Assembly: GCF_025465545.1 (NCBI RefSeq) | Contig: NZ_JAODMK010000040.1 | Location: forward strand, 1 to 64,000 | Direction: 5' to 3' | DNA length: 64,000 bases | Source: Naasia sp. | Lineage (GTDB): Bacteria > Actinomycetota > Actinomycetes > Actinomycetales > Microbacteriaceae | In this document: positions 20,268 through 22,141 of the stretch, in pieces | Layout: every line of letters starts with the position of its first letter | Position numbering within the stretch: the first letter of the stretch is position 1 | Made by a program: the position numbers and the translations under genes | Notes under the pieces: generated by a model | Told to the model about the DNA's origin: nothing | What the model saw: only the letters and a program-made list of their open reading frames with translations | Databases searched by the model: none

Positions 20268-21389
20268 TCAAGCCTCCGCGGCGCGGAGCCGGACCGCGAG
20301 CGAGTCGACCCGGGCGGCGATCAGGGCGCTGGCCGCCCAGCGCGCCGTGAGCTCGGCCAGCAGCGAGTCGAGGCGCCCGCGGTCGAGCCCGCCGATCAGG
20401 GTGAGGTCCACCTGCACCTCGGGGAAGAGGAGACGGGCCTCCGGGTCGCCGGACGCGAGGCGCACCTCGAGCACCTCGGAGACCGCCGAGCAGCGGGCGA
20501 ACTCGGCCGCCAGCTCCGGGTCGTCCTCGGGCGCCTGCCACGGGTGCTCCTGGGCGAGAGCGTCGAGGGCCGGGCGGCGGAGCGCGAACTCGGTGGGTGA
20601 GGTCGGATCGAGGATCACGACGTCGTTGCCCTCGGCGCGGGCGGCGAGGGCGACGCGCTCGCTCGCCGCGGGGACCGGTCGGGCGCGCGGATTCCACGCC
20701 TGCATCGCCGTGACGGAGGTGAAGGCCGGAAGAGCGGTCCTGCCATCGGGGGTGCCGACGGTCACGAGCGCCAGTTCTGCGCTCTTGTCCGTGAGCCTGC
20801 CTCCTCTGCCGGTGCCCGCCTCCGCGAGGCTCGCGAGCAGGGGGACGAGGAGTCTCGTGCCCCGCACGGCGTCGACGACCTCAGCGCGGCCGCCGTCTCC
20901 GTTCCGGAAGCGCCGGAGCGCCTCGAGGAGCAGCGGCGGCGCGGCTCCGTCGTCGTCGGCGTACGCTGTCTCGTCGAAGTGGCGGCCCGCCCAGGGCTGT
21001 CCGGCCGAATCGGTGCGCCGGCCCGGCAGATCCCCGGAAGGCTGTCCCGCCGAATCTGGGTGCCGGCCCCGCAGATTCCCGGAGGGCTGTCCCGCCGAAT
21101 CGGTGCGCCGGCCCGGCAGATCCCCGGAGGGCTGTCCCGCCGAATCGGTGTGGCGGCCCGGCAGATCCCCGGAAGGCTGTCCCGCCGAATCGGTGTGGCG
21201 GCCCCGCAGATCCCCGGAAGGCTGTCCCGCCGAATCTGGGTGCCGGCCCGGCAGATCCCCGAAGGGCTGTCCCGCCGAATCGGTGCGCCGGCCCCGCAGG
21301 TCCCCGGAGGGCTGTCCCGCCGAATCGGTGCGCCGGCCCGGCAGATTCCCGGAGGGCTGTCCCGCCGAATCGGTGTGCCGGTCGGACAC
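20268..21389 (-). CDS. SseB-family protein with expanded N-terminal tandem repeats
   Basis: The C-terminal 245 residues form an SseB-like protein (named for enhanced serine sensitivity; molecular role unclear), which in actinobacteria often follows hisA. The N-terminus is abnormal: after VSDRH come eight near-identical 15-residue units of the form TDSAGQPSGDLPGRR, then a ninth that runs into the core as TDSAGQPWAGRHFDE. The repeats contain no ATG, GTG or TTG in this frame, so translation must begin upstream; GTG 21389 is 5 nt after the hisA stop. The unit looks like an amplification of the native N-terminal motif. The repeat part is hydrophilic and probably disordered. Confidence 0.85.
   Translation of the reverse strand: MSDRHTDSAGQPSGNLPGRRTDSAGQPSGDLRGRRTDSAGQPFGDLPGRHPDSAGQPSGDLRGRHTDSAGQPSGDLPGRHTDSAGQPSGDLPGRRTDSAGQPSGNLRGRHPDSAGQPSGDLPGRRTDSAGQPWAGRHFDETAYADDDGAAPPLLLEALRRFRNGDGGRAEVVDAVRGTRLLVPLLASLAEAGTGRGGRLTDKSAELALVTVGTPDGRTALPAFTSVTAMQAWNPRARPVPAASERVALAARAEGNDVVILDPTSPTEFALRRPALDALAQEHPWQAPEDDPELAAEFARCSAVSEVLEVRLASGDPEARLLFPEVQVDLTLIGGLDRGRLDSLLAELTARWAASALIAARVDSLAVRLRAAEA
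20995..21386 (-). repeat. 45-bp coding tandem repeat (8 full copies plus a partial)
   Basis: Eight consecutive 45-bp units begin at 20995, 21040, 21085, 21130, 21175, 21220, 21265 and 21310; a ninth, partial copy begins at 21355. Each begins GGCTGTCC and ends near CCCCGGA on the plus strand. They differ at only a few positions, which give Thr/Pro, Asp/Asn, Pro/Arg and Arg/His choices in combinations that suggest shuffling between copies. Since 45 is a multiple of 3, several reading frames on both strands stay open through it; only the sseB frame is considered real. Confidence 0.95.
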
Positions 21390-21394
21390 GCCGC

Positions 21395-22141
21395 TCAGCG
21401 GCTCGCGACGTCGAGCGCCTCGGCCAGGGTGAACGCCCCCGCGTAGAGCGCCTTGCCGATGATGGCGCCCTCGAGTCCCTGAGGCACGAGCTCGCGGAGC
21501 GCGACGATGTCGTCGAGGCTCGAGACACCGCCGGAAGCCACGACCGGCCGCTCCGTCTTCGTCATGAGCTCGGTGAGCAGCTCGAGGTTGGGCCCACGGA
21601 GCGTTCCATCCTTGGTTACATCGGTCACGATGTAGCGGGCGCAGCCGGCGTCCTCGAGGCGCTCGAGCACCGTCCAGAGGTCGCCTCCGTCGCGGGTCCA
21701 GCCGCGGGCGGCGAGGGTGGTGCCGCGCACGTCGAGACCGACGGCGACCGCATCGCCGTGCCGGGCGATGACGCCCGCGGCCCACTCGGGATCCTCGAGC
21801 GCCGCAGTGCCGAGGTTGATGCGGCTCGCGCCGGTGCCGAGGGCCGCCTCGAGCGTCTCCTCGTCTCGGATCCCGCCGGACAGCTCCACCTTCACGTCCC
21901 GGCAGGCGCGGATGACACGGCGGATGAGGGAGGCGTTGTTGCCGCGGCCGAATGCGGCGTCGAGGTCGACGAGGTGGATCCACTCGGCCCCCTGGTCGGC
22001 CCATTCGCGCGCGGCGTCCACGGGGTCGCCGTAGCTCGTCTCGGTGCCGGCCTCGCCCTGGGTGAGGCGCACGGCCGCTCCCCCGGCCACGTCGACAGCG
22101 GGCAGCAGGGTCAGGGCAGGCGTCGTGGCGAACTCGCTCAT
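21395..22141 (-). CDS. hisA: Phosphoribosyl isomerase (HisA/PriA type)
   Basis: Isomerises ProFAR to PRFAR in histidine synthesis; in Actinobacteria the homologue PriA also serves the TrpF step in tryptophan synthesis. The 248-residue beta-alpha barrel has the N-terminal catalytic aspartate in [37 protein letters not shown] and [10 protein letters not shown] phosphate-binding motifs. ATG 22141 begins the recognisable protein, 49 bp after the hisH stop. The sequence alone does not settle whether it is bifunctional. Confidence 0.94.

Follow-up and report, generated by a model that had tools for sequence, protein, structure and literature searches.

The SseB-family gene in the window (the whole 64,000-nucleotide stretch of Naasia sp. 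DNA that was analysed) carries, ahead of its conserved core, a tandem array of 45-bp units that keeps the reading frame. This is probably a recent, lineage-specific and near-neutral coding minisatellite, which would have lengthened a disordered, length-tolerant tail of the protein. The features concerned are:

20268–21389, minus strand: SseB-family coding sequence (PF07179), 373 amino acids, start GTG at 21389–21387, stop at 20270–20268
21015–21374, minus strand: eight full tandem units of 45 bp (15 codons), consensus TDSAGQPSGDLPGR[H/R]
20994–21014, minus strand: ninth, partial copy, a 21-base head (TDSAGQP) that runs into the core as TDSAGQPWAGRHF and forms the first part of the DSAGxxWxGR motif
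20562–20930, minus strand: SseB N-terminal domain (PF07179), protein residues 154–276
21395–22141, minus strand: upstream gene priA/hisA (PF00977), stop codon at 21397–21395

On the minus strand, units 1–4 occupy 21374–21330, 21329–21285, 21284–21240 and 21239–21195, and units 5–8 occupy 21194–21150, 21149–21105, 21104–21060 and 21059–21015. The protein reads VSDRH, then the eight full 15-codon units, then the head of a ninth, which merges into TDSAGQPWAGRHFDE; this head, at 21014–20994, passes directly into WAGRHFDE. TRF calls the array at 20993–21381 with a period of 45, 8.6 copies, 90% matches and a score of 631, the highest in the 778,536 bases scanned (28% of the 2,756,659 of the genome), where the runner-up scores 276. 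Pairwise, the full units are identical at 38–44 of 45 bases; each is free of stops, and the frame is kept throughout. The sequence-only reading had described eight full units plus a partial copy before the SseB core, the last merging into it as TDSAGQPWAGR, and both points are borne out by these calls and coordinates. With 8.6 head-to-tail copies of 45 bp, the array is a minisatellite as defined in an excerpt of PMC3899988 (head-to-tail units over 10 bp).

The array DNA occurs at one locus only in its own genome, and a DNA search of congener genomes found it in none of eight. A mobile or dispersed repeat was ruled out by this single locus, by the congeners and by the lack of a match in plasmid or phage collections. 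A repeat shared with other proteins was also rejected: 396 order-level genomes gave seven weak matches beyond its own (L048–L054; E 5e-5 to 8e-4, 20–25 bits), and the SseB motif is missing from all seven loci. Some 20 family matches that apparently reach into the repeat region were inspected as sequences, and none has the array. One of the weak-match loci (L050, genome G147) contains, mid-locus on the minus strand, several dozen AEFNA pentapeptide units in a single open frame. Other repeats occur elsewhere in the genome of the window. A 212-residue frame (L189, contig C10, 3417–4055, plus strand) has roughly 15-residue repeats around DDVEGHAARSGR, called by TRF as 45 bp × 7.8 at 65%, and no Pfam match at E 0.001. 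A 332-residue frame (L188, contig C9, 10240–11238, plus strand) begins with hydrophobic sequence, contains a stretch of PVDPAPV-type repeats and looks secreted by eye.

The repeats, 120 residues in all, are very probably translated as part of the SseB-family protein. An open frame by itself proves nothing here, since none of the six is interrupted along the array; the argument comes instead from the position of the start. Between the priA stop and the conserved motif, GTG 21389 is the sole in-frame ATG, GTG or TTG, and five bases separate it from that stop. There is none inside the units, and the next downstream, GTG 20867, lies past the conserved motif, so that initiation there would cut away both the motif and the beginning of PF07179. 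GTG 21389 is therefore the only plausible start, and candidate starts in the relatives read likewise fall near the priA stop. The earlier claim that the repeats contain no start codon and so must be translated is confirmed in its first part and very probable in its second.

Membership of the SseB family, also proposed beforehand, is upheld by a PF07179 match of 83.4 bits (gathering cut-off 21, E 1.9e-23). Upstream lie hisB, hisH and priA; downstream lie a pyridoxal-dependent decarboxylase gene and, further away, infC. The biochemical role attached to SseB is serine sensitivity, from the E. coli gene name. The Salmonella SseB is not known to be related to PF07179. That protein belongs to a secretion system, as described in part of PMC10347375. 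An AlphaFold2 model from a 39-row alignment predicts the repeat tail to be disordered: in ten-residue blocks, pLDDT is 40–47 for residues 1–120, low values that may partly stem from the repeats being unmatched by any other alignment row, and 63–75 for residues 121–150. Core blocks are mostly at 94–98, dropping to 72–81 at residues 181–210. By sequence, no solved relative was found in the PDB (best E 0.75), and a fold search gave no match at E 0.001 or better, the best partial ones being zinc-transporter chains and TTHA0547.

A DSAGxxWxGR-type motif is present in all 154 relatives with a readable N terminus, and 153 of them have it in a single copy; second copies were sought with the pattern D[ST]AG in the sequence preceding the motif, which more diverged copies would escape. 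These relatives comprise 139 read by script, deduplicated and with a pattern requiring W-x-G, and 15 read by eye; they are the best-listed of 387 matching among 398 family genomes, with about 240 others not included. Nine named loci were added to the survey, four from genomes already met among the family rows. The counts leave out duplicate genomes (L107, L110, L149), further loci of the window's or an already counted genome (L001, L047, L055, L010–L012, L070, L009), the seven weak repeat matches, a 100-base stretch (L078) and one congener, G007 (L077), in which the contig breaks off within the gene. Among the 15 that escape the pattern, three have F for W (L085, L106, L160) and four have DSAD for DSAG (L082, L090, L164, L169); the motif is thus widely conserved yet not invariant. 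In the 39-protein alignment, built from L003–L008 and L013–L046 with the near-identical L035 and L036 omitted and no protein excluded for motif absence, D127, S128, A129, G130, W133, G135 and R136 are invariant.

All seven readable congeners have one copy. The best match among them reads VNGSDRFTDSAGTPWAGRHF where the window protein reads VSDRHTDSAGQP...WAGRHF, which makes a single-copy ancestor most likely. In one congener (G001; L010/L076) the SseB match falls into three pieces with a stop, and looks frame-shifted or mis-sequenced. That 153 of the 154 relatives carry the motif only once argues that the array arose recently, by amplification of a peptide from the N terminus of the protein itself. 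The full units keep DSAGQP and have SG(D/N)L(P/R)GR in place of W-x-G-R, so the amplified piece would be half of the motif. The proposal that the unit derives from the protein's own N-terminal motif is supported by the single-copy relatives, with the qualification that DSAGQP alone in the unit belongs to the family motif.

The window protein resembles SseB-family proteins in its folded core, which matches above the curated cut-off, and the relatives read in its place after priA; it differs in its longer N terminus, with about 125 residues ahead of the motif against roughly 4 to 78 in those relatives. Over 139 relatives, the distance between priA stop and motif has a median of 34 nt and a range of −2 to 217 (stop located by pattern, hence approximate); in the window it is 383 nt. 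In the orthologues of some genera (for example L086, L131, L163 and L157) a further short conserved stretch, ARNLGSTG, precedes DSAG in the N-terminal region. Linkers of SseB orthologues in other genera have also expanded, with unrelated units: 21 bp × 4.3 in L057, 15 × 3.2 in both L069 and L071, 9 × 4.3 in L131, 18 × 2.9 in L146, 18 × 3.1 in L067 and 24 × 3.0 in L087, the last two being poor arrays (76% and 68%). L103, from another genus (G145), has 24 bp × 2.5 and duplicates its own DSAG motif at about 680–756 on the plus strand (TDSAAGQPA, TDSAGQAA, TDSAGQPWQGR), independently of the window array. The arrays of L057, L069, L071, L103, L131 and L146 resemble that of the window in being in frame, tandem and at the matching position; they differ in having other units and fewer copies, and only L103 repeats DSAG.

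In each of the nine linker arrays scoring at least 60, that of the window included, the period is a multiple of three ((1/3)^9 = 5e-5), for a cut-off picked with the list already in view. This sets aside L120 (17 bp, score 66), which overlaps the stop of priA and the start of SseB; with it the count is nine of ten (P 4e-4). Below the cut-off, L019 has a 22-bp array (68%, score 56), and the linkers of L013, L068, L071 and L161 contain rows scoring 31–42 whose periods are 5, 10 and 14. L131 shares a genus with L146, and L057 shares a different one with L069, so the expansion events are not all independent.

The units differ among themselves in a mixed fashion. The D/N, P/R and H/R sites, spaced 7 to 16 bases apart, show all four allele combinations at each of the three site pairs (a four-gamete pattern). 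Such mixtures are to be expected from exchange or slippage whose junctions fall within units, and repeated mutation is the alternative; the variant combinations that the sequence-only reading had taken to suggest unequal exchange or slippage are thereby substantiated. Nine nucleotides vary, five of them nonsynonymously and four synonymously, where about 69% nonsynonymous is expected; this low-power test detects no selection on the unit differences (P 0.28). The DSAGQP protein sequence is unchanged in all nine copies and other positions vary. Such invariance would fit a functional motif, and recent homogenisation would account for it too.

These observations suggest a course of events. The ancestral N terminus would have been of the type (start)-SDRxTDSAGQPWAGRHF, and a duplication around its DSAGQP peptide may have produced a 45-bp unit lacking the W-x-G-R half. 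Replication slippage, unequal exchange or both would then have raised this unit to eight copies, and translation would place a disordered tail, some 125 residues long, in front of the single complete DSAGxxWxGR and the folded SseB core. The extra copies would represent near-neutral lengthening by chance, with no new device; neutrality is the most likely reading because the family as a whole accommodates changes of length at this tail position. The step from WAGRH to the unit tail SGDLPGRH is left without account by this scheme.

The main rival, though unlikely, is functional multivalency: DSAGQP would belong to a short linear motif that mediates binding, and the eight added copies would increase avidity towards a partner or towards further molecules of SseB. 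A DSAG-type motif in every relative read and the identity of DSAGQP across nine copies both favour it, as does, a little, the separate duplication in L103, which a functional reading would predict. Against this, the extra copies in the window and in L103 alike lack the W-x-G-R half, which does not vary among the 39 aligned proteins, other genera expand the linker with unrelated units, and the unit differences carry no selection signal in the low-power test. We know of no binding partner. The fuller proposal, that DSAGxxWxGR is a short linear binding motif whose DSAG half became a multivalent array independently in at least two lineages, seems a shade less likely still. Near-identical tandem units are also readily gained and lost, and copy number varying between cells or strains might adjust SseB abundance or activity, as variable bacterial repeats have been published (parts of PMC3899988 and PMC12817950). 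We think this very unlikely, given one copy in the seven readable congeners and a unit that is a multiple of three, so that copy change brings no frame switch; an on/off, phase-variable contingency locus is excluded by the preserved frame.

It is highly improbable that the array is an untranslated DNA or RNA element with the protein starting elsewhere. The six open frames leave room for this, and each full unit contains CTG, a rare start codon; the loss of conserved sequence that a start at 20867 would entail speaks against it, as do the single genomic site, the absence from phage and plasmid collections and the lack of any Rfam match at gathering scores over 20800–21700. The faintest chance of all we give to an assembly error, with either the copy number or the whole array wrong. 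The genome is a 53-contig draft, and arrays of about 390 bp are liable to collapse or mis-joining. The full units, however, differ from one another by 1–7 bases and the array lies within a 141,190-base contig, which makes pure invention unlikely; the copy count may still be wrong. The near-neutral coding minisatellite is thus the reading that we retain.

That bacterial genes can carry VNTRs and other variable segments in frame is well established (PMC2884548, PMC12817950 and PMC3899988, each in part). Excerpts of these sources describe such segments in the surface-protein genes of S. aureus (PMC2884548), VNTRs that keep the frame of pe/ppe genes (PMC12817950) and, in pathogenic bacteria, a preference of coding repeats for the N terminus (PMC3899988). 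As far as these excerpts go, the window array is like bacterial in-frame minisatellites and VNTRs in having units of tens of bases, a length that is a multiple of three, near-identical copies and mixed variants. It differs from the S. aureus and pe/ppe cases in that the gene is a conserved SseB-family gene and the unit comes from a family-wide motif; the array was seen in the one genome of the species that was analysed. In the openly licensed literature searched, we found no published account of the array, and nothing on the actinobacterial SseB family, on SseB with priA/hisA or on SseB with PF07179.

As an example of a conserved N-terminal peptide that has multiplied in frame within its own protein, the array is clear-cut, and its site is one that other genera have expanded with unrelated units. 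It also brings out DSAGxxWxGR ahead of the SseB core as a widely conserved, unexplained peptide that is directly testable. If the binding-motif reading were true, the array would amount to a natural experiment on the valency of a motif, set in a conserved protein that is uncharacterised. Should the additional copies be neutral, as is most likely, the interest would lie mainly in how disordered tails grow on conserved proteins.
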